Positions 40,670 through 63,751 of a stretch of DNA of 64,000 nt are shown here, piece after piece (positions within the stretch are counted from its first letter, which is position 1; each line of letters begins with the position of its first letter). The position numbers and the translations under genes were made by a program. The stretch lies in the NCBI GenBank assembly GCA_948144175.1, contig CANXME010000864.1, forward strand, positions 186,001 through 250,000. The letters run 5' to 3'. The notes below the pieces were generated by a model. The model did no database searches, was not told the DNA's origin, and saw only the letters and a program-made list of their open reading frames with translations. The stretch is from Closterium sp. NIES-65 (Eukaryota > Streptophyta > Zygnematophyceae > Desmidiales > Closteriaceae).

Positions 40670-41296
40670 CTCTTCGACCCAGTGACACCCCTCAGCAATT
40701 GAGCCTGCCCAGATCTCTCAGTGCAGTGGACATATTACAGTGTGGCGAGTTGGTTGAGGTGCGACAGATAAGGGACTCAGGCACGGATCAGCTCAGCCAG
40801 TTCTGCGCAGATCACTCACATCAGGTTGGTCAACAAGCTGATCAACTCAGCCGGTTCCTCCAGAGGACAGATGGCCAAGAAGGGATCCGAGAAAGGGAGA
40901 GAGCATGGGACTACCTGGCATGTGACGCAAACTCATGCAATGAAACAGGGACAGAGCCAAGGAGTTGTGGGATGGATTAGGTAGGAGGGTTAAGGGTGGT
41001 ACTGACAGGTAGGTGACACTGAAGGAGGTTGCTCATGTCATTTGGAGATGTTCAGATGATTCACTCTCGGCTTGCTGCATGCGTGGCGCACACATGGAGA
41101 AACATGGGGATGGACGGGATACACGAAATGGGGTTGGATGGGGTTGGACGTATAAGGTTGGGGCAAGGAAAATGAACGATTAGGAGAGGGAGACGTGGAA
41201 GGACTACAGATGGGGCAATGTACTGAGGTGAGGAGAGGGATGCCTGGGACGTTGATGGTGCGTCCCATCTGCCGCACTGCATGCACGCAAACATGA
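40670..41296 (+). repeat. Left copy of ~630-bp direct repeat
   Basis: Begins CTCTTCGACCC and matches 61707-62343 in the same orientation with roughly a dozen substitutions and one 11-bp indel, about 98% identity by eye. After 41296 about 190 bp are unmatched. Two units of the CACATGCGCTGGAG satellite follow (41488-41514) and then the transposon end. It contains a short open frame (to TAG at 40978-40980) also present in the right copy. Confidence 0.85.
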
Positions 41297-41514
41297 CAAG
41301 ACAGCATTCCACGTTGCTTTTTCATCCGGCCTCGTCACAATCTTCCCTCTTATTTGTTCAGCACTCTCACTCTCAGTAGCGCCGCCCACCCGAACGCACC
41401 TCTGGGGCATAGCCAGTACCTGCACACGTTGCTGGCACGCCCCTGGCAAGCGGGCCGCGAGAGTACTCAGAAGGCACCCACATGCGCTGGGGCAGCACTC
41501 ACATGCGCTGGAGC

Positions 41515-41720
41515 CATCACAAAAATGTGTGTGTCTAGAAAACATTCGACCGTTTGGTTTGTTACCAAGGGTTTAAAAAACGTTTGACAATCTTTCAGAA
41601 ATCATCTACATATCATTCGGATATCATTTTGTACTACCCAAATGTTTTGTTGATGTTTTAGTAATGGATTACCAATGTTTTGATGGTTGATGTGTCAAAT
41701 GTTGTTTGTTGAGACAATAC
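41515..41720 (+). repeat. Left terminal and subterminal region of the transposon
   Basis: Terminal CATCACAAAAATG, then motifs in both orientations: ACATTCGACCG, ACGTTTGACA, CCAAATGTTTTG, CCAATGTTTTG, TCAAATGTTG. Short subterminal repeats of this sort are where accessory proteins bind in CACTA elements (known for maize En/Spm). The equivalence here is inferred. Confidence 0.6.
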
Positions 41721-41795
41721 ATAAGGCTTCATGAATAGGAGTATCACAATTATACGATGTTATAGTCTAGAAAAACAGTCGCAATTTTGAAGGCA

Positions 41796-44700
41796 TTACC
41801 AGATGAACCTATTGAGGAGCTTCACATCAGGGTCTTTGCAGCATGGGACGACATGCACGATGCTAAGAATGCAATCTGCATCTACAACTGCATAGTTGTA
41901 AGTGCCCTTCGTGGGCAGCAGTCGCTTGCAGCCTGTGTAGCGGCAGACGCGCCGATCCTCCGTGTAGTACTCTATGTAGGCGGCCTTTTTTGCCACGCCA
42001 TCTTTCACGTAATGGAACAGCATCAAGCAACGGCCGTACCAGTTGGCCCCTTTGCCAGATGGGTTTATGGCCACATCTGAAAAGTGCCTCTCAGCAGGGC
42101 TTGCTTTGACAAACTGCCCCTTCTCGGTCCACTCCATTCTGTCGTGCGGTGGGATTGCCATGGCTGTGTGCACCTGCGAGTAAACAAACATGGAACGCAA
42201 CAAAACAATGGAAGGGTCGTGTTAGATTTCTCAAGGATGAGTTGCTAAGTGGTGCGTTGATACAACGGGTTTCCATGGCTGGGTTTTACCATTACAACTG
42301 GTCTAAGACTGCTTGCGTTTAACAGGATGGTAGTGGCAGGTCTGCATTGCAGGGGGCAATCTTATGATTCTCACACTGAGCACTTGTTCGCGGATTCCCT
42401 CCATGGTCAGCCGCTTCTTCAGGGCGCCCATCGCTTCATCTCCGTGAAGGAGGACGTAGCTCCTGAATACATCATCGAGGATGTTCCCCACGGTCATCTT
42501 CTTGTGTGTCTTTGTCATCACCCGGCGCCCAAGCGTGCAAGCCTGGGTAGGAAGGTGATGGATGCATGGTTTACATGGCGGCATAACAAGGCAGCAATTG
42601 AAGTGCAATGGGGACAACAGGAGGAGGGAGCAGTGATTAGGGACGAGTGGGTGGGAATAGGGGGCAGTACGAGAGGTCAGAGGGGGCAGCAACAGTAGGC
42701 ATGTGAATAGGGGGACAAGTGCCAAGCGGGGGGGGGGGCTCAACGAATTACAAAGATGGGCTGGATGGTTTAGCCAGTGGTGGAGCAAGGGTGGGAAGTT
42801 CGAGTGGGCGAGGGGTATAGCAGGAGGGTTTAGGTTCATGGGTGGACAAGCGGGGGATCTTTTGAGAGCAGAACGGGATGTCAAGGGGGGCAGCACGAGG
42901 ACACTTGGTGGGTGGACAAGTGGGGGAGCATGTGGGGGCAGAATGGGATGTCAAGAGGGGCAGCAAGAAGATGGTTGGTCGGTGGACAAGTGGGGAAGCA
43001 TGTAGGCGACAGAACGGGAAGCAAAGAGGGGCAGCAGGAGGAAGGTCGGTGGGTGGACAAGTGGGGAAGCATGTGGGGGCAGAACGGGATGTCAAGAGGG
43101 GCAGCAAGACGAAGGTTGGTGGGTGGACTAATGGGGAAGCATCTGGGGGCATTTAAGAGATGACAAGAGGGGGCAACGGGTTAAACATCCATGTGAGGCC
43201 CCGTGGGGGAGCATGGGAGTGCAGAACGGGATGTCATAAGTTTATGGTAGTCGGGTAAGGGCCAGCGGGGCTCAAGAGGATAGGCAAGGTTTAGCTTTAA
43301 AACAGGAGGTCATGGAGGGTAGTCGGCGGTTGGAGCAAGGGGGGACAAGTGGTGGATTGAAACGGCTTTGGGTTGTATTCAGTCTCACCTCCTTCATGGC
43401 TGTCTCGTAGGTTTTGTCCCCGCCGGCAGCCCGAGACAGCTGTCGAACAACAGCTTGCTCGACATGCTTCTTCACAATCCTATCTTCCACACCCTTCCAG
43501 TTGGTGCCCCGAGATGGGCGCTTTACTGTTGTCTTGTGGGATTGCTCGTACCGGTTCGACGAGTACTCCTGTGGCAATCCGCGTGCGCGGATCGTCGGTG
43601 GCAGGTGCGATACAAGATGTACCTTCACAATAAACCACTTCGACTTCTGGTTGTCGAACGCTAGAACAAGCGCATCGACCATCCTGTATGGAATGTGTTA
43701 TGGAGGATTGGAAGATACGGGGTTGGCGCAGTGGGGTGGTATGGAGGGGTTTACTGTGCCCCATACCCTCTCACATCCCCTCCTCCCCTCTCTCATGCCT
43801 TTCCGCCTTTTTTCATCCCCTCCCCCCTCCTCTCATATCCTCCCCCCCCCCCTCTCTCATCCCCTCCTTCCTTCTAATTGCCCCTCCATTCCCTCACTCT
43901 GTGCCCCTCCTCTTCTCTCTATGCCCCTCGTTGCCTCTCTCAGCCCCTCGTTGCCTCTCTCAGCCCCTCGATGCCTCTCTCAGCCCCTCGTTCCCTCTCT
44001 CAGCCCCTCGTTCCCTCTCTCAGCCCCTCGTTCCCTCTCTCAGCCCCTCGTTCCCTCTCTCAGCCCCTCGTTCCCTCTCTCAGCCCCTCGTTCCCTATCT
44101 CAGCCCCTCGTTCCCTATCTCAGCCCCTCGTTCCCTCTCTCAGCCCCTCGTTCCCTATCTCAGCCCCTCGTTCCCTCTCTCAGCCCCTCGTTCCCTCTCT
44201 CAGCCCCTCGTTCCCTCTCTCAGCCCCTCGTACCCTCTCTCAGCCCCTCGTTCCCTATCTCAGCCCCTCGTTCCCTCTCTCAGCCCCTCGTTCCCTCTCT
44301 CAGCCCCTCGTTCCCTCTCTCAGCCCCTTGTTCCCTCTCTCAGCCCCTCGTTCCCTCTCTCAGCCCCTCTATCCCTCTCTCATCCATCCTTCCCTATCTC
44401 TGCCCCCCCTTTCCCCTCTTTCGGCCCCTCGTTCCCTCACTCTGCCCTCTTTCCCTCTCTTTTCCATTCTTTCTCTCTCTTTGCCCTTCTTTCACAAACT
44501 TTGCCCGCTGTCCCCGTTTCTCAGCCCCCATTTCCCACACACGGCCCCTTAGTCCCTCTTTCGGCCCCTCGATCCTCGCTCTGTCCCTCTTTTCCCTCTG
44601 CGCAAGGAACGCACATCCATTCACACTAGACTTACTCGCAGGAGACCTCCTCCATGCGCTCGAGAGATTCATCAGTGTGATACTCAGCCCGGATGAACTC

Positions 44701-45663
44701 CTTGTACCAGTCCGACATGAGCGTGATGGCATGTCGAATATCGGCGCGCTTGGGGAGGTCAATAATGAGGGGCAGCACTTGCATCATGGCACGGTGCTCC
44801 GACGCCGAGAAGCAGGCCGTCGTGGTGAAGTACGCCCACGCGGATGGGAGCCTCAGCAAAGATGCAGGGGTCACTGCCTTGATGATCTTGTAGCGTCTGC
44901 ACGTACGGGATGCAATCAGGGTATCGGTTATGGGGGTGTGGGGCAGGGGGGGAAGGGGGAGGGAGGGGGGCAGGCGGGCGAGCAAGGGACGGGTGAAGGG
45001 GGGGGGGGAGTAGTTAGGTGCATCCAATCGCACCCTCATCTCCCCACTTTCTCTCTCACTGCCTCACTTTCCCCCCCTCTGCCCCTCTCTCCCATACTCT
45101 ATGCCCCACCCTTCCTCTCTCTGACCCTCGTTCCCACTCTCTGCCACATGATCACCTCGCTCCGCCCCTCGTTCCCTTTCTCTGCCCCAATTTGCCTCAC
45201 TCTTACCCACTTGCCCTCTCTCTGCCCCAATCTCCCTTTCTCTATTCCCAAATTTCCCCCTTCATTCCTCTCCTGCCCTCCCTATGCCCCGAGTTCACTT
45301 CTCTATGCCCCGCATTCACCTCTCTCTGACCCTCCTTCCCTCGTTATGACCCTCCTTCACTCCGTCGCTATCCCTCTCTCTACCGCGCATTCCTTCTTGG
45401 CTTCGTCTCTTACCCTCCCTCTACCCTGCATTCCTCCTTCGCGGAGTCTGTTTCCCTCTCTATGCCCACTTCCCTATGCCCCGCTCTCACCTCTCTCCGC
45501 CCCTCCTTCCCTCTCTCCGCCCCTCCTTCGGTCTCTCAGCCCCAAATTCCTTCTCTCTTCCCCACTGTCCCTTTCTCTGCCCCACTTTCCCTCTCTTTGC
45601 CCCACATGCACCTTCCTCTGACACTCATTCCCTCATCACGCCCCACCCTCTCTCTCTGCCTCG

Positions 45664-45707
<44 letters not shown>

Positions 45708-48700
45708 CCTCCTGCATGCTCTCCGCCCGGCATTCCACCACGCTACCCCTCCATCGCCCCGCCTTCTCTCACGCCCCGCCTTCTCTCACGCCCCGCCTTC
45801 TCTCACGCCCCGCCGTCTCTCACGCCCCGCCTTCTCTCACGCCCCGCCTTCTCTCACGCCCCGCCTTCTCTCACGCCCCGCCTTCTGTCACGCCCCGCCT
45901 TCTCTCACGCCCCGCCTTCGGTCACGCCCCGCCTTCGGTCACGCCCCGCCTTCTCTCACGCCCCGCCTTCTCTCACGCCCCGCCTTCTCTCACGCCCCGC
46001 CTTCTCTCACTCCGCCCCGAAGTCACTTCTATTTGCCCATCCTTCCATCCATCTGCCCCTCCTACCCTCTCTCTGCCCCAGCATACCTCTCGCTGCCCCA
46101 CTACCCCTCTCTCTGCCCCACTCTCCCCCTCTATTTGCCCCTCATTCCCTCTTCACGCCCTTCCTTCTCTCACTCTGCCCCGAAGTCACTACACTCTGCC
46201 CCTCCTGCCTTCTCTTTGCCCCGCAAGTACTTATATCTGCCCCTCCATCCATCCCTCTGCCCATCTTTCCCTCTGGCTGCCCATCTTTCCATATATATGC
46301 CCCGAATTCCCTCTCTCTGCCCCTCTCCCGCTCTCTCTTGGTGCCATATTCCCTCTCGTTGCCCCTCTTTCCCTCTCTCTGCCTCTGGTTCCCCCTCGAT
46401 GCTCCTCTCTCTTGCCCTTATGACCCGCGCCCCACAGTGGTGTAAGGGAAACTTACTCGAGAAGTATCTTCCGTTCTGAGGGTTTCAATTTCTTCACGAG
46501 GCACCTCATTGCATGAAGCCAGAGCCCTGCCTCGATAATGTGCATGATGTCGGGTGTTTGGGCGAGATACGTGTTGCCCCACGAGGTTTTGGAGAACTCC
46601 CAATCCCACAGCAAGGACTGGCAGCAAAGGGGAGGGGAACGAGAAAAAGGGGGCCTGAAGGATCAGGGTGGGAAAGGGGGCCAGGAATGACTTACGTGGA
46701 CAGACTCACCCTTGGACAGCAAGGGTGGTACACGGCGAGGTGTCCACCTCCAGCCTAAGAGGGAGGGGGACGGGAGTTTAGTTGGAGGGGGTGTTTGTGA
46801 GCTCGCGATGCACAAAGGAGAAGTGGGCAGGGGAGAAACTGATCTTACAACCAATTGCATGGGAAGGTGAACGGGGGTGGGACCATGGTACCACGGAACC
46901 ATACAAACGTACGCACACAATCAATAGCGGTACCTTAACGAAGTGGGTCGAATACTTCTTCTTCAGACGGTTCAGTTCCTTCTTGGTTTCCGCTCCCTCC
47001 ATTTTCTTGTACACAGCTTTTTGATCTCGGACGGTACGTGGAACGATCTCGTCATCCACGTCGCGAAGATTATCTCTCGTGACCATGCAGATGGAGCAAG
47101 GTCGGAAGGAGCTACATGACATGGTGCACGAAACCTTGTTGGACTCTGGATGGTCGTTCACGACTGAGTACAGCAGCGGGATGGCCACGTACTCAACCCC
47201 GTTGCTGTCCTCCACCTTCAAGCCCCTGCTGCGCGACCAAACATGAAATCATGCCATGTTGGTGGCTTTGGGGTGAGGAAATCAGGACTGAGAGCACGAA
47301 AGCAATGTTTAAAGGGGTCGGGCGTAACGGGACCAGAATGTGCACTCCAAATAACCACTGATGCAATACATGGCAAGGAGACTCTACGAAGCTATGACAT
47401 CTTTTCACGTTTGTAGAAGAACTTTAAGGGCAGCGTACCCGCGGAGCTTGGAAAGAGACTTCAGAGGCTGTAGCATGTATTCCGCCGCCAGTTGGAACAC
47501 CCTAATCTTCTCCTCTGGCTTCAGGTCGGAGGGGATGTTAGGGAAGAGCCCCAACAGCTCGGTGCCGCCTTCCAACCAACGCGCCCATTCCGGTGTGTTA
47601 CCGAATGACAACACGAAGGGGTGTGCTGATTGCCTACCATTGTAGGACAGGTTGGTTTGATCCGAATAGAGGATGATCGCCAACACGATTGCACCGACCT
47701 TACGGACGCGGTCCTGTAAAGGGCGGGAGAGATCAGAGGGCTAAACACGGAGATCAGAGAGCAAAGGGCGAAGGTCAGAGAGCAAATGACGGAGCTAAGA
47801 GGGATAAGGGCGAGAGGTCGGAGTGAAACGGGAGGATTTCAGCGTGCAAACCGCGGAGATCACAGAGGAAAGGGCGGGAGATAGAGGGCAAATTGCGGGA
47901 GATCAGACAGAAATGGGCGGAGACCTGAAAGCGCAGGGGGGAGATCAACGAGCAAAGTGCGGAGATCAGAGGGGAAAGGGCGGAGATCATGGGGCAAAGG
48001 GCGGGAGACTAGAGGGCAAAGGGCTGAGATGAGCGAGCAAAGTGCTGGAGATCGGAGAGAGAAAAAGGGCGGTGATCAGAGAGAGGAAAGAGGAGGAGGA
48101 TCAGAGAGAGGAAGGGCTTGAGATCAGAGAGAGGAAAGGGCGGGAGATCATAGGGCAAAGGGCGGATCAGCGAGCAACGGCGTAGATCAGAGAGCAAACG
48201 GCGGAGATGAGCGAGCAAGGGGCGGAGAGTCTGTGAGCAAACGGCGGAGATCAGCGAGCAAAGTGCGGAGAAAGGAGAGAGGAAAGGGCGGAGATCAGCG
48301 AGCAAACCGTGTAGATCAGAGAGCAAATGGCGGGGATGAGCGATCACATGGCGGAGATGAGCGATCAAACGGCGGATCTAAGAGAGAAAAGGGCGATAGG
48401 TCTGAGTGAAACGGGCGGATTCCAGTGAGCAAACGGCGGAGATCAGAGTACAAACCCGGCGATCGGGCGGAGGTCTGAGAGCAAGGGGGGGAGGACCGAG
48501 ATCAAGAGCGAGGGGCGACAGAGGTCAATGACTTCGAGCTTTAGATGCTCACTAACCCACGCTTTAAGCATCCAGTCAGTATTGCCAGGCGTGCTGTAGC
48601 GTCTTTCACCCTCCACCTTCCACTCCTTCGGCTCGATGATGAATCCGCGTACTGCGGACATCTTCTTGAACATCACCTGTGCCAACTGCAGATCGGAAAG

Positions 48701-49410
48701 AGCATTGTTTCATTGGTTCGTAAGGTAGATGCCATTCAATGAGTTGTTGACTAAGATACGCGACTGGTGAGGGGTGCGGCAGAATTAACTTGGGCGAGTA
48801 ACACAAACAGAGAGAACAGCGTGAGACACACCACGTTAATATTGCGAAATCTGAAGGTGAGGAATCCCACTTCATGATCCACAGGGATCTCAGCCACTTG
48901 CCAAGAATGCTCCGGCCCCAACTCGAAGCTGCTTTCGTACTTCTCAAGGTCCCTGTAAGTCGTCCAGCCTTCTAACTGTTCAACACTAATGCCCGGGATC
49001 CTGAAGATATCTATAAGGTCAGTTATGGCCCCATTCGTAAGCCCGTGTTTCCGTGCCAGAATGCATACTTCAGCCTTAAGATCAACGGGCTCTTCATCGT
49101 CATCCGATACCACCTCAAGGGTACTTTCGCAAGGCGCCTCAGCAGACTGTCCAGGTTTTTCTGAGATGGGAACTACTCTGTAAGCGGTTTCCGTCAATGG
49201 TAACTGCAGATTGGGTCGGGGAAGCGGTGCAGGCAGCAAAACGGGGACGGAATCCGAAGCGGCTCCAAGCTTTTTATGCTTCTGGCTCGACTGTTTTAAA
49301 CGCAACTTTCTCTTCTGCGTCAGCTTGCACTTATCGCCATTGGATTGGTGGCTTCGAAGGGTCTGATAGCAGAAGAAGACATCGCCACAGTCGCACTTTT
49401 GACCCTTCAT
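41796..49410 (-). CDS. Plavaka-like CMC/EnSpm transposase, nine exons
   Basis: Catalyses cut-and-paste transposition. Exons on the minus strand: 49410-48832, 48685 to about 48530, 47713-47439, 47225-46934, 46617-46457, 44896-44636, 43683-43389, 42542-42375, 42173-41796 (TAA). All junctions agree in phase except the exon 2 donor, for which no good GT consensus is seen. The ATG at 49408-49410 opens a Cys/His finger (CDCGDVFFCYQTLRSHQSN), then basic and acidic linkers. Core: ILYSDQTNLSYNG and SFGNTPEWARW (first catalytic Asp), LLYSVVNDHPESNKVSC plus CSICM, and WDWEFSKTSW with TPDIMHIIEAGLWLHAM. The C-terminus has NRYEQSHKTTVKRPSRGTNW and ends PDVKLLNRFIW. Length is about 855 residues. These blocks fit the Plavaka group of transposases, best known from fungi. 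No internal stop was found within the exons. Confidence 0.8.
42810..43150. repeat. 70-bp tandem repeat in transposase intron 7
   Basis: About four to five units of roughly 70 bp (GGTGGACAAGTGGGGAAGCA, then CAGAACGGGATGTCAAGAGG). The array lies wholly between two transposase exons. Confidence 0.8.
43921..44380. repeat. 20-bp tandem repeat in transposase intron 6
   Basis: About 23 copies of CAGCCCCTCGTTCCCTCTCT with few differences. On the plus strand it is open in several frames by composition only; on the transposase strand it is intronic. It is bounded by the exon acceptor near 43684 and donor near 44635. Confidence 0.9.
45030..46430. repeat. Pyrimidine-rich degenerate array in transposase intron 5
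   Basis: Derived from CTCTCTGCCCC-type units. It contains a tidy 17-bp sub-array (CACGCCCCGCCTTCTCT, about 14 copies, 45771-46010) and a CT microsatellite (about 45667-45704). Confidence 0.85.
47720..48500. repeat. Purine-rich degenerate array in transposase intron 2
   Basis: Irregular copies of GCGGAGATCAGAGAGCAAA fill the intron between transposase exons 2 and 3. Its expansion may be what obscures the exon 2 donor. Confidence 0.75.
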
Positions 49411-50353
49411 TTTTCAAACGTGATGTTGTGAGTTACGTAGGGAGCTTGTGCCTTTCATGAGATATAGCACCAACGTATTACTGTCGAGATGGTGTCAACA
49501 TTGAAATCTACGTCCAGCAGCATGTCATGGATGGAGGGAATCTGTCCCAACAAACATACCCGGGCTGGCTCTGGAAATGAAAAGGGTTCACAAGAAATAT
49601 GTTACTTAGCGTGAGAACCTACTCCACCCCGCATTGCAAAGGCGAATGAGCAGCTCCACGGTATGAAAATTTGATGTTTAGCGGATCACGAAGGTAACCG
49701 TGTGGTGTGCGAAGACAGTCACCGTGGGGTTAATAGTGTTCCGCAACTCCCTAGACACCTAAAAATATCTGGACACTACAGCATACTGGATGTCGAGTGT
49801 GCAGGGTTGACGTGGTGGGTGGCGAAACACCAAACCCGGAAGTGATTCTGACAACCCTAAAATTCCAACCAATCACGTATGATTACGTCATGTGTTGCTC
49901 AAGCCCAGGCAGGGTGATGAACCCTAATCGACCAAACTGCATTTCGTCTCAAAAATCCGACCGTTGAAAAGAGTCTCATCGTGCTGGATCTACGTGTTTC
50001 TCGAGCTAATTCCGGAAACATTGGAGCGCACAATTCTTGGACCACAGCTGACTGGGCATTCCAGACCAGCGAGAATCAGAATCAGTCACTAGTGAAGGGA
50101 GGCAATCAAGCGTTAGCAACCATCCGCGTTCATGTCAGTCCACGTCATTTGGAATCTGACGGACCCAAAGGCAGCACCGAAACGTGGGTGTCGAAACTGT
50201 GTTGCGGAACCACATCATTGGGCGATGCCTCTTCAACCCCCCATACACCAGAGAGCTCACACAGTTCCAGGGATAGCACCAGCAGCCAGAACACACTCCG
50301 TTGCATGACGATCTGAATCTCCAGTACCGCCAGCTCGTAGGTGATTCCATTCC
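49411..50353. promoter_or_regulatory. Divergent intergenic region between transposase and protease
   Basis: The two genes point away from each other, so this 0.94-kb stretch should hold both promoters; no element is clear enough to name. The 50170-50340 part reads like protein in one plus frame (VETVLRNHIIGRCLFNPPYT, later LHDDLNLQYRQLV) but has a TAG at 50274-50276. A 92-nt intron (50341-50432) would join it in phase to the protease, so the protease may start further upstream than annotated. Confidence 0.4.
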
Positions 50354-51491
50354 ATGGCTTCACGAGATGCAGCTTGTGATTTTCCCTTTCACCCGATTTC
50401 AATGCCTTTCCCATTTGGCGGAGCGTGGCTAGACGTCAGTGAGGAACACGCTAATAAGCTTAAACCCGGAGAATGGGTGACCGGAATCGTCATCGACTGG
50501 CTGGGAGTGTGAGTTATGAGTTTAATTTCGTGAGAATCCAAAGTAGGACTACTTTGTAGGTCTAAGACGCTTATAATGCGTTATGTTTCAACAACCACAG
50601 GATGCTTCAATATGAGCACGGTCGCGACAACAAGATGTGGCTGTACAGTGGATCCTACTTCTGGAACTACGCTGGAAGGGACATTGCGAAGCGGGGTAAC
50701 GCCCATCTTTTTGGGCTGGGGATATTCGACTACAACTATATTCTCGTCCCGATCAACAGCGAGTGGGTGTCAATCGCTTGAATTCCAGTCATAATTTCGA
50801 TCAACGACTATTTCTGACAGATACTCGCTCATCGCTTGTTGTAGGTATCATTGGAGCTTGGTCGTCATTGAGATAATCCCCAAACCAGATGAGAACATAC
50901 CCATGACCTGCGTTCTCTGGCATGCGGATTCGTACGGATCCCACGAATCCGTGGACGCGCCTTTGCGAAAGTACTGTCAGAGGACGTCATGGGTGTGCAT
51001 TCTATCGTAGAAGCCCGATCTCTAATCTTCCATTTGTGCTCCGTCATTCAGGTACTTAAGAAACGAGGTTATGAGGGTCTCAACTTGGATCCTTGATTCG
51101 GACGCAGATGCTTGGGCTGCGAGCATCCCTCTGCGCGTCGTCAAGGTGACCTCTGATCCCGTTGTCTTAAATGCCAGCTCTCAATCAACGACCCACCTTT
51201 TGACAGCCACGTGCATGTGCGAATGTGTGTTGACAGATTCCGTCGCAGACTAATGAGAATGACTGCGGTGTGTTCACGATGCGCGTGATGCACACACTTG
51301 TTGAAAACAAGTTCCATAACCTGGGTGCGTGTAAGCTTGTTGGTACACCGAGTAAGTGGCGCCGTCAGTACCTTCGCGACCTGAAGAAGTGGTCTGTCTT
51401 CTTCCTCGAAAATGCGTTGAACCAACCTCGAAACCAGGAGGAGGAGGTGGATGAGGAGGATGAGAAGGTGCAGGCGGATGTAGTGGAGTAG
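50354..51491 (+). CDS. Ulp1/SENP-like cysteine protease (family C48), five exons
   Basis: Thiol protease fold that in hosts removes SUMO-like modifiers. Exons: 50354-50508, 50601-50762, 50845-50970, 51052-51145, 51237-51491 (TAG); 792 nt, 263 residues, all phases consistent, introns 81-92 nt. Conserved blocks: LKPGEWVTGIVIDWLG, FGLGIFDYNYILVPINSEYH, then HWSLVVIEI (catalytic His), LWHADSYG (Asp) and SQTNENDCGVFTMRVM (oxyanion Gln and catalytic Cys). An alternative acceptor at 51248 would drop the Gln. All catalytic residues are present. The C-terminus is acidic. It lies between the transposase and third gene inside the inferred transposon. Ulp1-like genes are known passengers in some plant Mutator-like elements. 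The start codon is the least certain part. Confidence 0.82.
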
Positions 51492-51544
51492 GTGGAGGAG
51501 GAGTAGGAGGAAGAGGTGGAGGAGGAGGAAGAGGAGGCATGTGA

Positions 51545-51975
51545 AGCACGTGGGGCATGAATGGCGTGTGAGGTGTTTGAGGCATGTGATGCATCGAGCC
51601 GGCATGTGAGGCATACGAGGTATACGAGGCATGAGAGGCAGAGCTCATGTGAGGAACATGATGCACGACGGGACATGTGAGGCACGTGAGGCATGCGAGG
51701 CACGTGAGGCATGAGTGGCATGTGGGGCATTGTGCTGACATGTGATGCATGTGAGGCATACGAGGCATGGGAGGCGGAGCTCAGGTGACTCCCGTGAGGC
51801 ACGTGTGGCATGTGAGGCACGTGATAAATCTGAGGCACGTGAGGCATGTGAGGCACGTGAGGCATGAGTGGCATGTGTGGCATCGGGTGAGGTATCGTGG
51901 TGGCATGTATTCATGTGAGGCGTGTGAGGCACGTGAGGCATGTGAGGCATGTGTGGCACTTGCGGCACGTGATGT
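51545..51975. repeat. GGCATGTGAGGCACGTGA minisatellite
   Basis: Immediately 3' of the protease stop. Mixed 9-12 bp units of GGCATGTGA or GGCACGTGA produce many CACGTG and CATGTG sites. All-frame openness on the minus strand reflects the repeat, not a gene. Confidence 0.8.
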
Positions 51976-52184
51976 CGGTATGAGAGGCGCACCTTGTTAT
52001 TGATGATGACCCAGCAGTCAACTCTCTTGTTAAGCCTCGCTACCTCCTCCTTGTATACACCTTGGTTTCTTAGGCAGCCTGTCAGTGGGATGAACTTGTC
52101 GATAAAGTATGGATAAACGGGCAGGAGATATGGCAGATGAATAATGTCCGGCGAATGTGGTCTTGTGGACCAACTGGATAGAGA

Positions 52185-52510
52185 ACAAGGAGGTGTAGAG
52201 GACGGAGAGGTGCTGAGAACGGAGAGGTGCAGAGAAACGAGAGGTGTAGAGGACGGAGAGGTGCAGAGAACGGAGAGGTGCAGAGAACGGAGAGGTGCAG
52301 AGAATGGAGAGGTGCAAAGAACGGAGAGGTGCAGCGGACGGAGAGGTGCAGAGGACGGAGGAGAGGGGCAGAGAACGGAGAGGTGCAGGGAACGGAGAGG
52401 TGCAGGGAAGGGAGAGGTTTAGCGAATGGAGAGGTGCAGTGGACTGGGTGAGGTAGTGAACAAAGAGTTGCAGAGGTTGTAGAGGTGCAGATTACGGAGA
52501 GGTGCACATA
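52185..52510. repeat. 17-bp minisatellite (ACGGAGAGGTGCAGAGA)
   Basis: About 17 to 19 copies with point differences and a few length variants, between the protease and third gene. Confidence 0.85.
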
Positions 52511-54043
52511 ATGGAAAGTGGACTTGGTCATTGCACTCAGCCATAGTACATTGACCTTGTCCCAGTGACTAGCTTTGCAAAAGGCAACTGGCTTCCATGT
52601 GCTGTTTTGCCAGGGAGATCAACAACTGTCTCAGCTGCATGTAACCACGTGTCTTCATGCTATTCTTCAGTAATGAAAATCACACGTCTATACATGAAGA
52701 TAATCACAACCCATAGTAAACTGTAACGGTGAATTTGACAGGATTGCTTGGCTGTTCAAAATTTAAGCTACGGTGCATAGAGCAGAGATTTTAATCGATT
52801 AACGACATCACTGTGTGCATCCTACTGATTTGTGTTGGTTATTTGTTAATGTTACGTGTGCAATTGAGTGAACGAACGAGAATTGCACTATCGAAGCAAG
52901 AGTACAATGAGCGAAGGCATGAGCGAAGGATTATATAGCGAAACAATAGTGGTAACGGTACTGGACTGTGGTTGTCGCGCGACGAGCCTGGGACTGAGGT
53001 TGGGAAAGTGTCGAAGCGTAGGCCCGGAGCGCGGGTTACCAGCCGAGCCGTGAGGTCGGGATGCGATGTGCGAAAAGGGCGGGATGATGAATGATGCGAT
53101 GGTCGCGAGTGGTAACGGTGCTGACTGAGGTGCTACAGTGATGTACGCGTTGAGCAGGGACGCGAAGTAAGGAAAAGGGAATTTCCTTACAGTTAAAAAC
53201 CAGTGTGTCCCCATGGAATATAAAGGCAGGACTGGACTCTATGAACCAATTGAGCGGATTTCCATGACGATTATACACCCAATTTCGAACAGGGTAGTAC
53301 ATGCCAATACTGTAGCATAGCGAGACTAGGCGTTTATACGCGCTGGAAATTCGGATGCGCCTCACACCCCACGCCTACGACACCTGTGCTCATCACACCA
53401 CTGAGCCGTTGCGACCGTGTCGCAATCGCTGTGCGGCGACTCACGTCGCCGCGATTTCAGGTGTTCCCTTGCACAATCACGCTGTGTCGACCTGTTGTAC
53501 GTGGCTGCACGACGTTGTGCGACCACGAGCCCACCTTCCCTCTCTCGTGTAGTTCGCTGAGTAGTCGCAGCTGCTCATCGGGCATGGTACGTGACTATTG
53601 TGATAATATACGTGCGGCACCTGTCGCGTTGCCTGTAATTCAGCAACACGAGGGAGTCGGGCAGTTCAAACTCTCACTCGTTGCCGCTGGTTTATTTATC
53701 ATAGGCCGTCCCTTTCGCACTTAGCGGCAAAACAATCAGCAGCGCGCCGTAGGTATCCAACGGACCATACAGTCAGTGGCGCGAACACGAGTGCAGTTTC
53801 TGGAAACCTGGCCAAAGCGTCATTACCTGTGACCGTGACCGTCTAGCTTCTTCCCATCTACAGTAACAGCCCATGTACCCATGCTCTGGAGAGGCGGTGG
53901 ATCTCGAAGGACCATCGTGCTTCTCTAAACCGCATGTTCAAACCCTCATCAGCCTGGTGCTGCTCATACGTGGTGGTTGGATCACGTACACCTGCTCCAC
54001 CACCGTGTCTGGTACTCGGACCTCAGCAACCAACTGACATTTA
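52511..54043. other. Spacer between protease and third gene
   Basis: No exon can be supported. It probably contains the promoter and 5' UTR of the gene at 54044. GC content rises around 53350-53600. Confidence 0.4.
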
Positions 54044-57000
54044 ATGCTAGTATCCGCTGGTGAGTCAAGTCACTATCTAATTCCTAACTTCCGTAACACG
54101 CCCGTCATGGGTGTGAACCTAGATCCAACAGTTCAAGCTCAAACCCTTAATGCGCAAGTAGGGGTTGTTGAGTTGCCTAGTTCTACCAAATCGCCAGATG
54201 AGAAGAGATATATGGAGGTAGTCACACCAGAGAAAATGGCCCAAGTCGTCAACGAGTATCGTAGGAGACATCCGTCCAAAGCTTGCAACGACAGCAAGTC
54301 AGGGGGCGATTCTTCATCTGAAAACGACTCCAGCCGTGACGGCGATGTGGAGTCATACGCAAACAAGGCTATTTCATCGCCCCCGAAACGGAGGGAACGG
54401 CGTATCAAGAAGTTGGAAGAATGCAACCCCAAAATAGGCCAGAAAGGTACGTGTTCACCGGATCCCACCAGCAATTATATGGCTCCTTGCGTAATTTCTG
54501 GGATGCCTATAGGTTGTTACCGCGTATCCCGCTTACGTCACATGTGACTACTCATTTTTCTCTTTTTATGCTTTTCACAGCCGGGTCAGAAGAGAAGGGT
54601 CACTGCCGTCCGAGAGCAAAGCGCAGGAAGGGGAGGAGTGCGGTGGAGAGGGGCAGTTCTTTCCATCGTCAGGATAAGGTGGCATTGGCCGGTGGCGACG
54701 ACGTGCTACAGTCTGGGCCTGCCAAAGACGGGGAGGGTAAGGGACGAGGGGCTGTAGGCGCTAAGGGCGACAGTGATGGGGAGCGCAAGGGACGAGGGGC
54801 TGTAGGCGCTAAGGGCGACAGTGATGGGGAGCGCAAGGGACGAGGGGCTGTAGGCGCTAAGGGCGACAGTGATGGGGAGCGTAAGGGACGAGGGGCTGTA
54901 GGCGCTAAGGGCGACAGTGATGGGGAGCGTAAGGGACGAGGGGCTGTAGGCGCTAAGGGCAACAGTGATGGGGAGCGTAAGGGACGAGGGGCTGTAGGCG
55001 CTAAGGGCGACAGTGATGGGGAGCGTAAGGGACGAGAGGCTGTAGGCGCTAAGGGCGACAGTGATGGGGAGCGTAAGGGACGAGGGGCTGTAAGCACTAA
55101 GGGCGACAGTGATGGGGAGCGTAAGGGACGAGGGGCTGTAAGCACTAAGGGCGACAGTGATAGGGAGCGTAAGGGACGAGGGGCTGTAAGCACTAAGGGC
55201 GACAGTGATGGGGAGCGTAAGGGACGAGGGGCTGAAGTCACGTACAAGCGGCGCAAGGTGGTTGACACGGGCGGTCACGACAGAAAAATGAGGAAGGCTC
55301 GCCAGGGACGGAAACGGTACGCTTCACCCAGATCGTCGTCCGGTTCCGAGGAGGGATCCAGCGACGGGGAATCTGGTAGTTCATCTGGCAGCGAATATGG
55401 GGACGAGGAGGAGGAGGAGGAGGAGGAGGAGGAGGAGAGTGAGGACCAAGATCTGGAGCCGGAAAGCGAGGAGGCGGATGAGGTGCGTCCCAAGAGAAAG
55501 GGGCGGGATCGGAAGGCCAAGAAGGGCATTCCTAAGAGGAACCGTGACAAGGGTCGGGACAAGGGCCGTAAGGGGCGCGACAGTCGTGGGAAATCGCATG
55601 GCAACAACGGTCGCCGGCGTGTGGTTTCCCAGGTTGTCCGTGTGCGCCCCAAAGTGAAGCCCGAGCCTGAATTCTATGCGGAGATGGGAGTGAAAGCAAC
55701 TGCTGCTCCTACTGGATATCTTGATCGTAAAGACCAGACCCGAAGGAGGCGTGACGATCGCGAGGACCCTTATGCTGCTCTCAGAGGGCCATCACTAAAT
55801 GCTGGGAAAGGAGCAGACCCGTTGCCTACAGGGTCATGGCGTCATAACAAGGAGGGAAAAGACCCACTTGCGAAGCGTCTCGAGACACGGGATTCACCGG
55901 ATCTTGATAAAGACGACTTTAAGCCCAAACGGTACGCTGACCCAACGGCCGCAGCAGCAAACGACGGTGTGGCAGGTGGGATGTGGGCAAACACATTGGG
56001 TGATTGTGGCGGAGTTATGGCTGGCTCTCCGTACGATGAACGTGACGAAAGGGGCGACGACTACACCTGGAAAAGGGATCCACACACGAACGAGGGGAGG
56101 GGTGAGAGCATGTGCACGCCCGGTGCATCTGGTCGTCTCAATCCGGCTCGCCCCAAGACGGTGGAGCAGCTCACGCGAGAGCTTGAGCTAGCAAACAGCG
56201 AACTAGCAACCCTCAAGGCAAAACCAGCTTGCAATGGCGTCAAAAACCGCGGACCCCCTTCCCAAGTTCCTCCTCTGGCACCTTTGGAGAGCGACCCATC
56301 ATCTGGGGGCCTCAGTCCCGAGGTAGCTGATGAGAGCACCCCGACAGAGGGCCAGCCCATTCGGCGCAGGCATGGAATGCCCACTCTCGAGAAACTGAGG
56401 GTGAGTGTGAGGGGCACTCTGCGTTGCTTTCATGCTCATTCGTAACCCCCTGCTAGCATCTTGCTATTCATGCTCATGTTAACCCCCCTTGCTAGCCCCA
56501 CATTGTCCAGCATGTCGTTCCAAACCCCCTCTGCCTGCACTACGTCTGTTCTTGCTCATTCGTAACCCCCTTGCCAGCCCCACATTGTCATGGTTGTTAA
56601 TTATAACCCCCTCTGCCTGCCCCACATTTGATATGCTTGCCCCTCGCCACTGATTTCTTCTTGCCCTACCATCCCGTCCATTGTAGCTTCATTTTGTTGA
56701 GGCGCGGGACCGGATGTGCATGGAAGCGCCGGACCATGCGGTTGACTGGTACCCATCATTTGACCAGCGACTACAGGTTCTGTATGGCGTCATCAGTGAG
56801 ACCCACATCATTTCTTACATGCAGCTGAAAGAGACAATGAAGGATCAGAACGTCGTTGCCGTCTTTAAACGTGTGTGGACAGCATGGAAGAATGAACGGG
56901 GATTTCAAGTCAAGCGCGGTGTGCTCGAGAAGTTTGGAGTGAAGGTGGAGGGACTGCGTGCATCGCAGATCAAGCTGAGCACGAAGAGGAAGTGGAGGTT

Positions 57001-60000
57001 GTGGCGAAAATACAAACCGAGTGAGTCTTGACAATCAGCTATCCCGCTGCAACTACGTTGGTTTCGTCGCGTTGCTCATTCCCTTTGTCTTTTCAGATAG
57101 CACTTTTATTTCCTAAACCTGGCCCCATCATGTCATGGTCACAAACCCGTCTGCCCTGCATTCCCCACCGCAGGTTCCTTGCCCAAACCCCTCTGCCCTG
57201 CCTGCCCCACCTCAGGATCGTAAACCCAAACTCTTCTGCCCTGCCTGCCCCACCTCAGGATCCTCACCCAAACCCCTCTGCCCTGCCTGCCCCACCTCAG
57301 GATCCTCACTCAAACCCCTCTGCCCTGCCTGCCCCACCTCAGGATCCTAAACCCAAACCCCTCTGCCCTGCCTGCCCCACCTCAGGATCCTCACCCAAAC
57401 CCCTCTGCCCTGCCTGCCCCACCTCAGGATCCTCACTCAAACCCCTCTGCCCTGCCTGCCCCACCTCAGGATCCTAAACCCCAACCCCTCTGCCCTGCCT
57501 GCCCCACCTCAGGATCCTCACTCAAACCCCTCTGCCCTGCCTGCCCCACCTCAGGATCCTCACTCAAACCCCTCTGCCCTGCCTGCCCCACCTCAGGATC
57601 CTCACCCAAACCCCTCTGCCCTGCCTGCCCCACCTCAGGATCCTAAACCCAAACCCCTCTGCCCTGCCTGCCCCACCTCAGGATCCTAAACCCAAACCCC
57701 TCTGCCCTGCCTGCCCCACCTCAGGATCCTCACCCAAACCCCTCTGCCCTGCCTGCCCCACCTCAGGACCCTAAACCCAAACCCCTCTGTCCTGCCTGCC
57801 CCACCTCAGGATCCTCACCCAAACCCCTCTGTCCTGCCTGCCCCACTACTTGGACCCTAACCCCCAGCCCCTCTGCCCTGCCTGCCCCACCTCAGGATCC
57901 TAAACCCAAACCCCTCTGCCCTGCCTGCCCCACCTCAGGATCCTCACCCAAACCCCTCTGCCCTGCCTGCCCCACCTCAGGATCCTAAACACAAACCCCT
58001 CTGCCCTGCCTGCCCCACCTCAGGATCCTCACCCAAACCCCTCTGCCCTGCCTGCCCCACCTCAGGATCCTCACCCAAACCCCTCTGCCCTGCCTGCCCC
58101 ACCTCAGGATCCTAAACCCAAACCCCTCTGCCCTGCCTGCCCCACCTCAGGATCCTCACCCAAACCCCTCTGCCCTGCCTGCCCCACCTCAGGACCCTAA
58201 ACCCAAACCCCTCTGCCCTGCCTGCCCCACCTCAGGATCCTCACCCAAACCCCTCTGCCCTGCCTGCCCCACCTCAGGATCCTAAACACAAACCCCTCTG
58301 CCCTGCCTGCCCCACCTCAGGATCCTAAACCCAAACCCCTCTGCCCTGCCTGCCCCACCTCAGGATCCTCACCCAAACCCATCTGCCCTGCCTGCCCCAC
58401 CTCAGGATCCTAAACCCAAACCCCTCTGCCCTGCCTGCCCCACCTCAGGATCCTCACCCAAACCCCTCTGCCCTGCCTGCCCCACCTCAGGACCCTAAAC
58501 CCAAACCCCTCTGCCCTGCCTGCCCCACCTCAGGATCCTCACCCAAACCCCTCTGCCCTGCCTGCCCCACCTCAGGACCCTAAACCCAAACCCCTCTGCC
58601 CTGCCTGCCCCACCTCAGGATCCTCACCCAAACCGCTCTGCCCTGCCTGCCCCACCTCAGGACCCTAAACCCAAACCCCTCTGCCCTGCCTGCCCCACCT
58701 CAGGATCCTCACCCAAACCCCTCTGCCCTGCCTGCCCCACCTCAGGTTCCTCGCCCAAACCCCTCTGCCCTGCCTGCCCCACCTCAGGATCCTCACCCAA
58801 ACCCCTCTGCCCTGCCTGCCCCACCTCAGGATCCTAAACCCAAACCCCTCTGCCCTGCCTGCCCCACCTCAGGATCCTCACCCAAACCCCTCTGCCCTGC
58901 CTGCCCCACCTCAGGATCCTCACCCAAACCCCTCTGCCCTGCCTGCCCCACCTCAGGATCCTCACCCAAACCCCTCTGCCCTGCCTGCCCCACCTCAGGA
59001 TCCTCACCCAAACCCCTCTTCCCTGCCTGCCCCACCTCAGGATCCTAAACCCAAACCCCTCTGCCCTGCCTGCCCCACCTCAGGATCCTCACCCAAACCC
59101 CTCTGCCCTGCCTGCCCCACCTCAGGATCCTAAACCCGAACCCCTCTGCCCTGCCTGCCCCACCCCAGGATCCTCACCCAAACCCCTCTGCCCGGCCTGC
59201 CCCTTCTTACGATGCCCAAACATACCTCCAAACACTGCCTGCCCCACTACTTGATGATAAAACATACCCCGTGCTTCCCCACATGGTTGTGCCTCCTTGT
59301 AGGAGGGAATGAGCGGGTCAGCTCGTGGGGGAACGACAGATCCGGGCTCCCTTTTGCCAACGCCTGGTTTGTGGATGCGGTGAAGGCATCATTTCGGGAT
59401 TACGCTGTTGGGCGCAGGCTGGCCCTAAAGACGTACCACATAGCCTGGTCACTCATGGTGGTGAGACTGGTTTTGTAAATCACATGTACTTGCCCTAATG
59501 CTCAATCTTTTCTATTGCACGTGAACGACTTGGGACCCTTGGGGGCTAACACCGGTAACATGCAACTCTGCCTTGCTGCTGGTCCCTGTAATCCAAACCC
59601 GTTTCAGATTGATCAAGGCTTGGCGCGCTTCAAGGAGACCGACATGAACCTGCCGAACTCCCACAGGAAAAACACTAGATGGATGAGGAGTTTGACTCGG
59701 GGGGTGCGGAGGATTGTAAGGGATCACTTTACACGCCACACCCCCGTGTACAACGCAGAGTTGCAGGGCTTCAAGTGGGGCACGCGTGGGCTCTATGTAC
59801 ATGAGTCCGGGTTTCAGGCGTTCCGGGGGACGGCTCAGGCTGATAACGAGGAGGAGGAGGAGGAGGAGGAGGAGGAGGAGGAGGAGCAAGAGGATTTCAG
59901 TGAGAAGGAGGAGGAGGAGGAGGAGCAAGAGGAGGAGGAGCAAGAGGAGGAAGAGGAGGAAGAGGAGGAGGAGGATGAGGATGAGGAGGATGAGGAGGAG

Positions 60001-60111
60001 GATGAAGAGGAGGAAGAGGAAGAGGAGGATGATGAGCAGGGGGGGAAGGAGTTGAGAGGGAGCAGAAGGCACAAGAGAGGCAAAAACATGGGTGGCAGGA
60101 GGGGAAAGTGA
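54044..60111 (+). CDS. Large charged protein of the transposon, five exons, function unknown
   Basis: Exons: 54044-54446, 54581-56400, 56687-57020, 59303-59460, and a last exon to TGA at 60109-60111. About 1,070-1,100 residues. The last exon either starts at 59608 after a normal CAG, or at 59521 after an AC; both keep frame. The ATG at 54107 is an alternative start. Order: short N-region; basic linker; ten 16-residue repeats (RKGRGAVGAKGDSDGE); acidic and basic tracts; LTRELELANSELATLKAK, a probable short coiled coil; then a folded-looking C-terminal half (HFVEARDRMCMEAPDHAVDW, VAVFKRVWTAWKNERGF, FANAWFVDAVKASFRDYAVG, HRKNTRWMRSLTRGVRRIV) and a long Glu/Asp tail. I recognise no known family. 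Its place inside the transposon suggests an accessory, possibly DNA-binding, protein; that is inference. Confidence 0.62.
54745..55230 (+). repeat. 48-bp coding tandem repeat
   Basis: Ten full units and a partial one code RKGRGAVGAKGDSDGE. The last three full units carry VSTKG instead of VGAKG, so the array has two sub-families. Being 48 bp long, it preserves frame. Confidence 0.92.
57130..59210. repeat. 42/43-bp minisatellite filling intron 3 of the third gene
   Basis: About 48 units containing GCCCTGCCTGCCCCACCTCA followed by GGATCCTCACCC (42 bp) or GGATCCTAAACCC (43 bp). The two unit types alternate irregularly, some with GGACCC in place of GGATCC. It accounts for nearly all of the 2.28-kb intron (57021-59302). 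Confidence 0.92.
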
Positions 60112-60234
60112 TGTGCAGGCAGACAAGGGGGCAAGCAGGACGGGTGGCAGTGGAGGAAGTTGGAGAGGCATCGGGTGAGGCAGGAGGGTATCGGTTAACG
60201 GGGAGAGCAGGGGCGTTTAACGGGTATGGATAAA

Positions 60235-60850
60235 GGAAAGGCATCAGGATAGGCAACAAGGGTAAGAAGCCGAGAGTCAACAAGGAAAGGCAGCAGGGGA
60301 GGCAACATAGAAAGGCACCACGGGAGGCAACAGGGAGAGGGAGCAGGGAAGGCAACATAGAATGACAGCAGGGGAGGCAACAGAGAAAGGCACCACGGGA
60401 GGCAACAGGGAGAGGGAGCAGGGAAGGCAACATAGAATGACAGCAGGGGAGGCAACAGAGAGGCAGAATGGGAGGCAACATAGAATGGCAGCAGGGGAGG
60501 CAACAAAGGGAGGCAGCAGGGGAGGCAACATTAAATAGCAGCAGGGTAGGCAACAGAGAGAGGGAGTAGGGGAGGCAACATAGAATGGCAGCAGGCGAGA
60601 CAACAGAGAGAGGCAGCATGGGAGGCAACATAGAATGGCAGCAGGGGAGGCAACAAAGGGGCAGGGGAGGCAACAAAGGGAGGCGGTAGGGGAGGCAACA
60701 TTGAACAGCAGCAGGGTAGGCAACAGAGAGAGGCAGCATGGGAGGCAACTAGAATGGCAGCAGGGGAGACAACAAAGGGAGGCAGCTTGGGAGGCAACAT
60801 TGAATGGCAGCAGGGGGGGAGGCAACATCCCGTGGCAGTAGGGGAGGAGT
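60235..60850. repeat. Purine-rich degenerate array (GGCAGCAGGGGAGGCAACA)
   Basis: Follows the stop of the third gene. Units of about 24-30 bp. Minus-strand frames are open over long stretches (Cys/Leu/Pro-rich) only because of the repeat. Confidence 0.8.
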
Positions 60851-61549
60851 GCATATTTAATATGCGACCGTTTTGCAGGTTGCCTGGGTGGCGGAGGAGC
60901 AGTGGAGGCAGCATGTGAGGCAGTAGTGGAGGAGCAGTGGAGGCAGCATGAGTAGCATCAGGGGGGGGAGGCCGGGAGGTAAGAGGGGAGTTCCAGGAGA
61001 GGCCCAATGTGGAGCAGCAGGAGCAGGCATGAGAGGAGACCGCATAGGGGGCAGCAGCGTGGAGACAGCAAGGGGACAGGAGTATAAGCAAGAGAGGAGA
61101 CAGGAAGTGTGTAGCCGTGCAGGTTAGCATTAGATGGAGCAGTATCTGTAGTCAAGAACTCTCTAGGCCAAGAGCTGGAGAGATGGGGCGGGGCTGCATC
61201 CGATGATGGCTTGCGAAGTAGGTAGGAGGATGGTGCAGATTAATCCACCCTAGCAGGACTACGCAACGCGTGTTTAGGCAGCTGTTTTGTGTGCCAAGCC
61301 AACTCTGTAATGAGATTAATAATCATTGAGCAATGCATTCATGATGTGCGTGTACACCTAAGAATGGCTAATAGACCTTCCATCAAACAACGAGAATCAC
61401 TTGATAAAGGTTCATATACAATCTTCTTGAACTTTGGTCCTAAGCTCTGCTAAAGAGTATATGAGTGGAAAGTAATCTCCCTGAACTCTCCGAACGAAGT
61501 CTTATACATCTCCGAAGAAACTCAGACAGACCCTAATCTGAAGGTAATA
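60851..61549. other. Transposon right arm, non-coding
   Basis: No gene seen. The left part continues a GGAGGCAGCA-type purine bias to about 61090; the remainder is AT-richer and unique in this window, apart from its last 100 bp. Confidence 0.45.
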
Positions 61550-61706
61550 CAAACATGTCATCACCTGCAAAGCATTCGACAAAGCATTCGAAAAAATGTT
61601 TATACTTTCACCGAAAAGCGTTTTGGCCCCTACGTTTTAAAAGCATTTGAAAATACTTCACCACAACTTTTTACAATAGGTTTCTGGTCATATGATTTTT
61701 GTGATG
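61550..61706 (-). repeat. Right terminal and subterminal region of the transposon
   Basis: Contains AAGCATTCGA twice, AAAGCGTTTTGG, AAAGCATTTGAAA, then CTGGTCATATG and the terminal ATTTTTGTGATG. It matches a diverged second terminus at 63590-63751 along its full length. Confidence 0.65.
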
Positions 61707-62343
61707 CTCTTCGACCCAGTGACACCCCTCAGCAATTGAGCCTGCCCAGATCTCTCAGTGCAGTGGATATATTACAGTGTGGCGAGTTGGTTGAGGTGCG
61801 ACAGATAAGGGACTCAGGCACGGATCAGCTCAGCCAGTTCTGCGCAGATCACTCACATCAGGTTGGTCAACAAGCTGATCAACTCAGCCGGTTCCTCCAG
61901 AGGAGAGATGGTCAAGAAGGGATCCGAGAAAGGGAGAGAGCATGGGACTACCTGGCATGTGACGCAAACTCATGCAATGAAACAGGGACAGAGCCAAGGA
62001 GTTGTGGGATGGACTAGGTAGGAGGGGTAAGGGTGGTACTGACAGGTAGGTGACACTGAAGGAGGTTGCTCATGTCATTTGGAGATGTTCAGATGATTCA
62101 CTCTCGGCTTGCTGCATGTGTGGCGCACACATGTAGAAACATGGGGATCGATGGGATACACGAAATGGGGTTGGATGGGGTTGGACGTATAAGGTTGGGG
62201 CAAGGAAAATGAACGATTAGGAGAGGGAGAGGGAGGGGAGACGTGGAAGGACTACAGATGGGGCAATGTACTGAGGTGAGGAGAGGGATGGCTGAGACGT
62301 TGATGGTGCGTCCCATCTGCCGCACTGCACGCACGCACATGCG
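61707..62343 (+). repeat. Right copy of ~630-bp direct repeat
   Basis: Starts at the first base after the transposon end and matches 40670-41296 in the same orientation. An 11-bp insertion (GAGGGAGGGGA-like) relative to the left copy lies near 62225. It runs straight into the 21-bp satellite. Confidence 0.85.
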
Positions 62344-63150
62344 CTGGAGCAGCACTCACATTCGCTGGAGCAGCATTCACATGCGTTGGAGCAGCACTCA
62401 CATGTGCTGGAGCAGCACTCACATGCGCTGGAGCAGCATTCACATGCGCTGGAGTAGCACTCACATGCGCTGGAGCAGCACTCACATGCGCTGGAGCAGC
62501 ACTCACATACGCTGGAGTAGCACTCACATGCGCTGGAGCAGCACTCACATGCGCTGGAGCAGCACTCACATGCGCTGGAGCAGCACTCACATGCGCTGGA
62601 GCAGCACTCACATGCGCTGGAGCAGCACTCACATGCGCTGGAGCAGCACTCACATGCGTTGGAGCAGCACTCACATGCGCTGGAGTAGCACTCACATGCG
62701 CTGGAGCAGCACTCACATGCGCTGGAGCAGCACTCACATGCGCTGGAGCAGCACTCACATGCGCTGGAGCAGCACTCACATGCGCTGGAGCAGCACTCAC
62801 ATGCGCTGGAGCAGCACTCACATGCGCTGGAGCAGCACTCACATGCGCTGGAGCAGCACTCACATGCGCTGGAGCAGCACTCACATGCGCTGGAGCAGCA
62901 CTCACATGCGCTGGAGCAGCACTCACATGCGCTGGAGCAGCACTCACATGCGCTGGAGCAGCACTCACATGCGCTGGAGCAGCACTCACATGCGCTGGAG
63001 CAGCATTCACATGCGCTGGAGCAGCATTCACATGCGCTGGAGTAGCACTCACATGCCCTGGAGCAGCACTCACATGCGCTGGAGCAGCACTCACATGCGC
63101 TGGAGCAGCACTCACATGCGCTGGAGCAGCACTCACATGCCTCACGTACC
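62338..63150. repeat. 21-bp satellite array, ~38 copies
   Basis: The unit contains CACTCACATGCGCTGGAGCA. Most copies are identical; a few carry ATTCAC, GTAGCA or CGTTGG variants. Three reading frames (one plus, two minus) stay open for more than 300 codons, because 21 is a multiple of three and the unit has no stop in them. Two units of the same satellite lie at the left transposon end (41488-41514). Confidence 0.92.
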
Positions 63151-63479
63151 AGGGAGACAACGTTGCCTTGCCATGAGCGTCGCACGTGACGCCCTGCACG
63201 GTTGAGCAGTCACTGCTGCCCGACCACGCCTGCCAGCCGCCCCCAAGCTGCCCCCATGCCGCCAGCGCCTGCGGAACAGCTTGACTGCCAGCGAAGGCCG
63301 GAGAGGGTTGGACGCAGGGGGTGCAGCCGCGGGCTCACGGAGGTCAGCGGGCACGGTGGAGTGTGGGGGGAGGGAATCCACATGGGGAGGGGCATGGGGG
63401 CACGCAGGGACCGGAAGAGGCCCTCTTAAAAATATTAATAACGTTTGTGGAATGTCCAATAATTAGTAGTATGAAGTCA
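63151..63479. other. GC-rich unique segment
   Basis: No gene recognised. The minus strand is open but Pro/Ala/Arg-rich without a domain. A CTTAAAAATATTAATAACG transition near 63425 marks the change to AT-rich, transposon-like sequence. Confidence 0.4.
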
Positions 63480-63751
63480 ACATCAAACTCACTGAAGAGT
63501 ACAATGCAATCAGATCTAGTCTCCAAAATCACTTCGCAAAAACTCATACCAAACGTCAGTCGAAGGTATTCAAGATGCAGTTTTGGACAGAGAAGCATTC
63601 GAGTACCATTTGAAAAGCATTCGACAACGCATTTGGAAAACGACCTATACTTTCTCAGAAAAGCGTTTGAAACCCTACGTTTCTAAATCATTTGAAAAAG
63701 CTCCAACGAGCCTCTTTTCATTGGCTTTCTGGACGCTGGATTTTTGTGATG
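63480..63751 (-). mobile_element. Diverged right terminus of a second, related transposon
   Basis: Matches 61500-61706 in the same orientation at perhaps 65-70% by eye: AAAACTCATACC, CGAAGGTATTCAAGATG, AAGCATTCGA, AAAGCGTTTGAAACCC, CTTTCTGGACG and the terminal ATTTTTGTGATG at 63740-63751. No matching left end was found in the window, so it is a fragment or its other end was lost. Confidence 0.6.

Follow-up and report, generated by a model that had tools for sequence, protein, structure and literature searches.

A PlavakaB-like DNA transposon that probably carries a Ulp1/C48 protease and a third gene alongside its transposase in streptophyte-like genomic surroundings

Introduction

PlavakaB DNA transposons have the termini 5'-CATCA..TGATG-3' and target-site duplications of 2 or 3 bp, and in the transposases of their clade C(2)C and H(3-4)H motifs lie between the second D and the last E (Kojima, 2025, PMC12730594; this and the other papers are cited for the passages concerned). 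"EnSpm-Plavaka" has been reported in the green alga Auxenochlorella (PMC12633428) and Plavaka transposases flank giant repeats in Amoebidium. The present analysis concerns positions 41515-61706 of a 64-kb stretch of Closterium sp. NIES-65 DNA (contig CANXME010000864.1; the whole stretch is referred to as the window), which probably constitutes one PlavakaB-like DNA transposon carrying a transposase gene, a Ulp1/C48 protease gene, and a third gene. The element resembles fungal PlavakaB in its PF18759 transposase, the order of catalytic and C2C/H3H residues, and the CATCA..TGATG termini, whereas a TET/JBP dioxygenase gene accompanies some of the fungal families but not others (PMC12730594) and the present element has the protease and third gene and sits in streptophyte-like genomic surroundings. 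Like the Auxenochlorella case, it is a cut-and-paste element of the Plavaka group from the green lineage (PMC12633428). A sequence-only reading of the window had remarked that Plavaka-group transposases are best known from fungi, which as a point of novelty is overstated given the Auxenochlorella (PMC12633428) and Amoebidium cases in print.

Ulp1 domains have been described in two other kinds of DNA transposon. The KIU/Kaonashi VANDAL Mutator-like elements of Arabidopsis have three coding genes, one of them with a Ulp1 domain, and escape from silencing is associated with this gene in KIU-type VANDALs, the part of Ulp1 itself being unsettled (PMC13317346). Ginger1 has a C-terminal Ulp1 domain with a proposed role in activating repair during or after transposition (PMC2836005). 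The present element is like the KIU/VANDAL elements in being a plant transposon with three coding genes and a Ulp1 domain in one of them, but its transposase belongs to another superfamily and its Ulp1 is a separate short gene instead of part of a VANC-type protein (PMC13317346). Like Ginger1 it is a DNA transposon bringing a Ulp1 protease, although the Ginger1 transposase is integrase-like with the protease fused to it, and the Ulp1-bearing rows of Table 1 in that paper come from Hydra (PMC2836005).

Both a Plavaka element in a green alga and Ulp1 in DNA transposons (Mutator/KIU, Ginger1) are already known. The pairing of Plavaka with Ulp1 was not found in the literature searched, which included few subscription journals and left supplements and Repbase outside its scope. 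Ulp1, C48, and SUMO had no occurrence in the main texts among the Plavaka papers listed, including Kojima (2025, PMC12730594) and the Auxenochlorella paper (PMC12633428), whose passage on EnSpm-Plavaka gives no gene content, and no paper on EnSpm with Ulp1 was among those listed; the terms Ulp1, KIU, and ULP did not occur in Hosaka (2017, PMC5735166). The remark that this combination is not a standard description stands for the pairing within the literature searched, while each half has already been published.

Results and Discussion

Termini and Borders

The element is bounded by exact 12-bp terminal inverted repeats, CATCACAAAAAT at 41515-41526 (plus strand) and its reverse complement ATTTTTGTGATG at 61695-61706 (minus strand), and the only other exact copy of this sequence in the window lies at 63740-63751, in a second right-hand end. 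Judged by its terminal sequences, the element spans 41515-61706 rather than 41518-61703 because its ends at 41515 and 61706 match the published PlavakaB termini CATCA..TGATG; the narrower borders, previously given for empty sites, would trim CAT/ATG off PlavakaB-type ends. The subterminal motifs claimed from the letters alone were likewise found, with CATTYGA occurring 19 times on both strands of the window and nine of these falling in three 200-bp termini (expected ~0.06 per terminus): two in the first 200 bp of the element (left subterminal region 41527-41714, plus strand), three in its last 200 bp (right subterminal region 61412-61694, minus strand), and four in the second right end.

This second right end (63424-63751, minus strand) has diverged but belongs to the same family: it is homologous to 61412-61706, with a local score of 168 where random windows (up to 300, as controls for the end comparisons) reached at most 49.5, and with 72.7% identity over 282 aligned bases. 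No left end belonging to it was recognizable in the window. The left and right ends of the element itself displayed weak similarity beyond the 12 bp (local score 74.5 versus a random maximum of 61.5). A scan of the full window with 180-bp queries, considering the 14 best rows per end, placed the two right ends as the best non-self places for the left-end query (56.5 and 50.5) and the left end as the best place apart from the right ends for the second-right-end query (56.5, next 46.5). Among these rows, no other Plavaka-type end was found inside the element. A nested element bearing the protease or third gene was also considered and rejected, as nine inverted pairs were present in 49400-61706, none at plausible borders.

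Transposase, Protease, and Third Gene

The transposase gene (41796-49410, minus strand) was assembled as a hand-built splice model of nine exons coding for 844 amino acids (49410-48835, 48685-48557, 47713-47439, 47225-46934, 46617-46457, 44896-44636, 43683-43389, 42542-42375, and 42173-41796). A profile search of the joined exons confirmed the suspected Plavaka-like transposase, with Pfam PF18759 (Plavaka) matching residues 192-460 across several exon junctions (E=2.1e-21, 76.9 bits compared to a cut-off of 26.3). Plavaka was the sole Pfam match at E up to 1, with none to a Mutator-type transposase as in KIU/VANDAL elements. Relatives of Plavaka are published with the order D-D-C2C-H3H-E, which appears here as D253, D351, C370-x2-C373, H587-x3-H591, and E611, the catalytic and C2C/H3H residues having been assigned by eye from the published description and not via aligned references. 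On the profile match and this residue order, the predicted enzyme belongs to the Plavaka group. Residues 6-28 at the N-terminus are Cys/His-rich and finger-like by eye only, and residues 1-192 gave no Pfam match.

The protease gene (50354-51491, plus strand; exons 50354-50508, 50601-50762, 50845-50970, 51052-51145, and 51237-51491) codes for 263 amino acids in five exons and is divergent from the transposase gene. The divergently transcribed Ulp1/C48 protease noticed earlier was borne out by a match to PF02902 (Peptidase_C48; E=4.3e-11), similarity to the SENP2 structure 1tgz (E=1.5e-6), and retention of the active-site residues H108, D134, Q183, and C189 in the order His-Asp-(Gln)-Cys. A further match to cpSF2-GREB1 was below the cut-off (E=0.19) and was put down to chance. 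The 943 bp between the divergent start codons (49411-50353) are, from their position, a candidate bidirectional promoter.

The third gene (54044-60111, plus strand; exons 54044-54446, 54581-56400, 56687-57020, 59303-59460, and 59608-60111) has five exons and codes for 1072 amino acids, in agreement with the large repeat-bearing protein previously proposed. Approximately ten 16-residue repeats derive from a 48-bp array of 10.5 copies at 54730-55234, and the protein has basic and acidic stretches with a 244-residue region ahead of an acidic tail. That region had no Pfam match at E up to 10, while its sole row in the PDB, as a partial query and not the whole protein, was chain 1to4 at E=1.6; the N-terminal 134 residues gave only a below-cut-off Pfam match to IMUP (E=0.033). 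Intron 3 is mostly filled by a 2-kb minisatellite with a 42-bp unit (57142-59203), the largest array of the element. Tandem repeats make up 34.8% of the element compared to 5.8% of the remaining window (hand-merged list), with 11 of the 14 arrays in the element wholly outside exons and three overlapping them.

The claim of three multi-exon genes without stops in the modeled exons held, as all internal junctions of the spliced models are GT/AG and the terminal stop alone is in frame. Read in the two alternative frames, the joined exons contain 37 and 40 stops for the transposase, 11 and 19 for the protease, and 38 and 84 for the third gene. Position-specific G+C was 0.54/0.42/0.68 in the array-free part of the third gene and 0.54/0.40/0.67 in the transposase, and these values and the stop counts back the frame of the third gene. 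Scans for relatives covered viral and prokaryotic contig collections, and their negatives therefore carry little weight: the viral collection held no relative of the transposase, none of the 244-residue part of the third protein, and none of the protease (four stretches fit a pattern and none encodes a relative), while two stretches of the prokaryote collection matched in the transposase scan and neither was a relative.

Flanking Duplication and Probable Insertion Target

The element is flanked by a duplication whose left copy (A, 40670-41281, plus strand) begins 845 bp left of the element and whose right copy (A', 61707-62329, plus strand) begins exactly at the first base after it, which supports 61706 as part of one element. 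The copies align over 612 bases with 11 mismatches (1.8%) and 11 unaligned bases. A' runs directly, at a short similar sequence, into a 21-bp minisatellite (62331-63140, plus strand; 38.6 copies, 810 bp) that is the likely insertion target because two of its units also abut the left end of the element. The 192 bp of left flank at 41282-41473 are single-copy in the window. Insertion probably took place in the 21-bp minisatellite, and a later cut at the right end would have been repaired by copying upstream DNA, erasing any target-site duplication. Such a repair would explain why no target-site duplication is seen and why A' lacks 41282-41473, and the flanking duplication is probably a product of repair after a transposase cut. 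None of the 2-3 bp target-site duplications of PlavakaB was read, the right flank being copied upstream DNA with the original apparently gone.

For the flanks only, a duplication by alternative transposition, in which the ends of two elements act jointly as in the maize Ac reversed-ends events, is a possible though less favored origin. In the maize events the element sits at the junction of a direct duplication, as here, but they begin from reversely oriented ends of two elements and show target-site duplications at reciprocal junctions (PMC3744419), neither of which was seen at this locus; moreover, the single-copy 41282-41473 and the passage of A' into the array suit template switching better. 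An interpretation of the two copies as a long terminal repeat pair was dropped by reasoning, since the enclosed DNA has Plavaka ends. The heptamer ACCCTCT occurs twice in tandem at 40660-40673, over the start of copy A, and could be a footprint or chance.

Proposed Mechanism and Alternative Explanations

The transposase would be a DDE enzyme of the EnSpm/CACTA-Transib clade. In cut-and-paste fashion it would bind the subterminal regions rich in CATTYGA, cleave the DNA at CATCA..TGATG, and then insert the element anew. Transposition or expression may be aided by the protease, which would strip SUMO off either the transposase itself or host factors acting in repair or silencing; a role in repair or on the transposase and a role in anti-silencing appear about equally probable on present analysis. 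The third protein carries basic and acidic stretches and may be a DNA- or chromatin-binding accessory.

A single transposon is supported by its ends, the ordered transposase residues, the protease active site, the open models, and the nearby second end of the family. Several observations weigh against it. One complete copy is visible in the 64-kb window, which leaves joint travel of the three genes conjectural. The left and right ends share little in sequence except the 12 bp and the CATTYGA motif; the left-end query matches its own other strand twice (60 and 57), above both right ends, and in the scan with the first right end the left end did not reach the best 14 rows, whereas an unrelated place scored 53.5. 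No target-site duplication is seen between the flanks ...GGAGC and CTCTT.... The third protein is without a recognizable domain, its whole 1072 residues having no Pfam match at E up to 1, and a single-sequence structure model of its exon 3 (111 residues) was of low confidence and uninformative (mean predicted local distance difference test score 56.4). The codon-usage correlation between the transposase and third gene was 0.730 in frame and 0.734 shifted, a non-discriminating test that failed its own control. Finally, the splice junctions were hand-picked to join frames, such that the open frames are partly by construction; the models nevertheless have independent support because the Plavaka match crosses junctions and both enzymes show their active-site residues where expected.

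The protease and/or third gene may instead have been captured from the host by a Plavaka element as passenger cargo that neither belongs to the family nor serves transposition. Plant transposons capture host genes including Ulp1 domains (PMC13317346), the third gene has no transposon-related domain in the Pfam searches, and the minisatellite third of the element (34.8%) is much DNA without evident function. However, captured sequences most commonly end in pseudogenization or loss (PMC13317346), whereas both genes have open multi-exon models and the protease retains its active-site residues, making cargo an unlikely explanation.

That the two ends stem from different insertions, the left end pairing with 63751 in a 22.2-kb composite or the 61706 end coming from another element, is highly improbable: the window does hold one left and two right ends, left and right are similar hardly past 12 bp, and a composite that spans the copied flank together with the 21-bp array and an LRR-like coding fragment would resemble the Pack-CACTA capture model (PMC13317346), but the two right ends differ by 27% and the flanking copy begins exactly at 61707, as expected if 61706 was a real end that was cut.

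With a single PlavakaB-like transposon as the preferred reading, the suggestion that it may be recent agrees with the open frames and with the low mismatch (1.8%) between the flanking copies, which do not prove it. Should the three genes move as a unit, a SUMO-type protease would have been taken up by a further transposon superfamily besides Mutator and Ginger1, the role of Ulp1 in transposons would become testable by comparison, and the gene content of Plavaka would be widened, with an apparently intact member in a streptophyte-like genome. More tentatively, green-lineage PlavakaB might be a three-gene lineage in which a stand-alone SUMO protease and a new chromatin-binding protein fill the anti-silencing slot that a TET/JBP dioxygenase occupies in certain fungal Plavakas, converging on the three-gene KIU elements of flowering plants, although this is doubtful.

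Other Features of the Window

Parts of one or more receptor-kinase genes lie on the plus strand at 4415-34562, including a kinase exon at 32670-33047 (PF07714, E=7e-16) and a segment at 4415-4504. This segment and a minus-strand coding fragment at 63158-63334, which lies past the flanking copy and before the second right end, are what we take to be LRR-N-terminal-like pieces; they are 52% identical over 33 aligned positions, and one of the two was put to Pfam without a match. The fragment at 63158-63334 is possibly a gene fragment on its way to capture. The kinase exon, the LRR-like segments, and the intron-rich genes appear to fit streptophyte surroundings. Pieces of a hAT transposase were identified at 10576-14038 (DUF659, 6.1e-25; hAT dimerization region, 5e-7; BED finger below the cut-off at E=0.0057), and large duplicated segments at 14963-17779 and 22582-25744 are ~88% identical in their two longest pieces.

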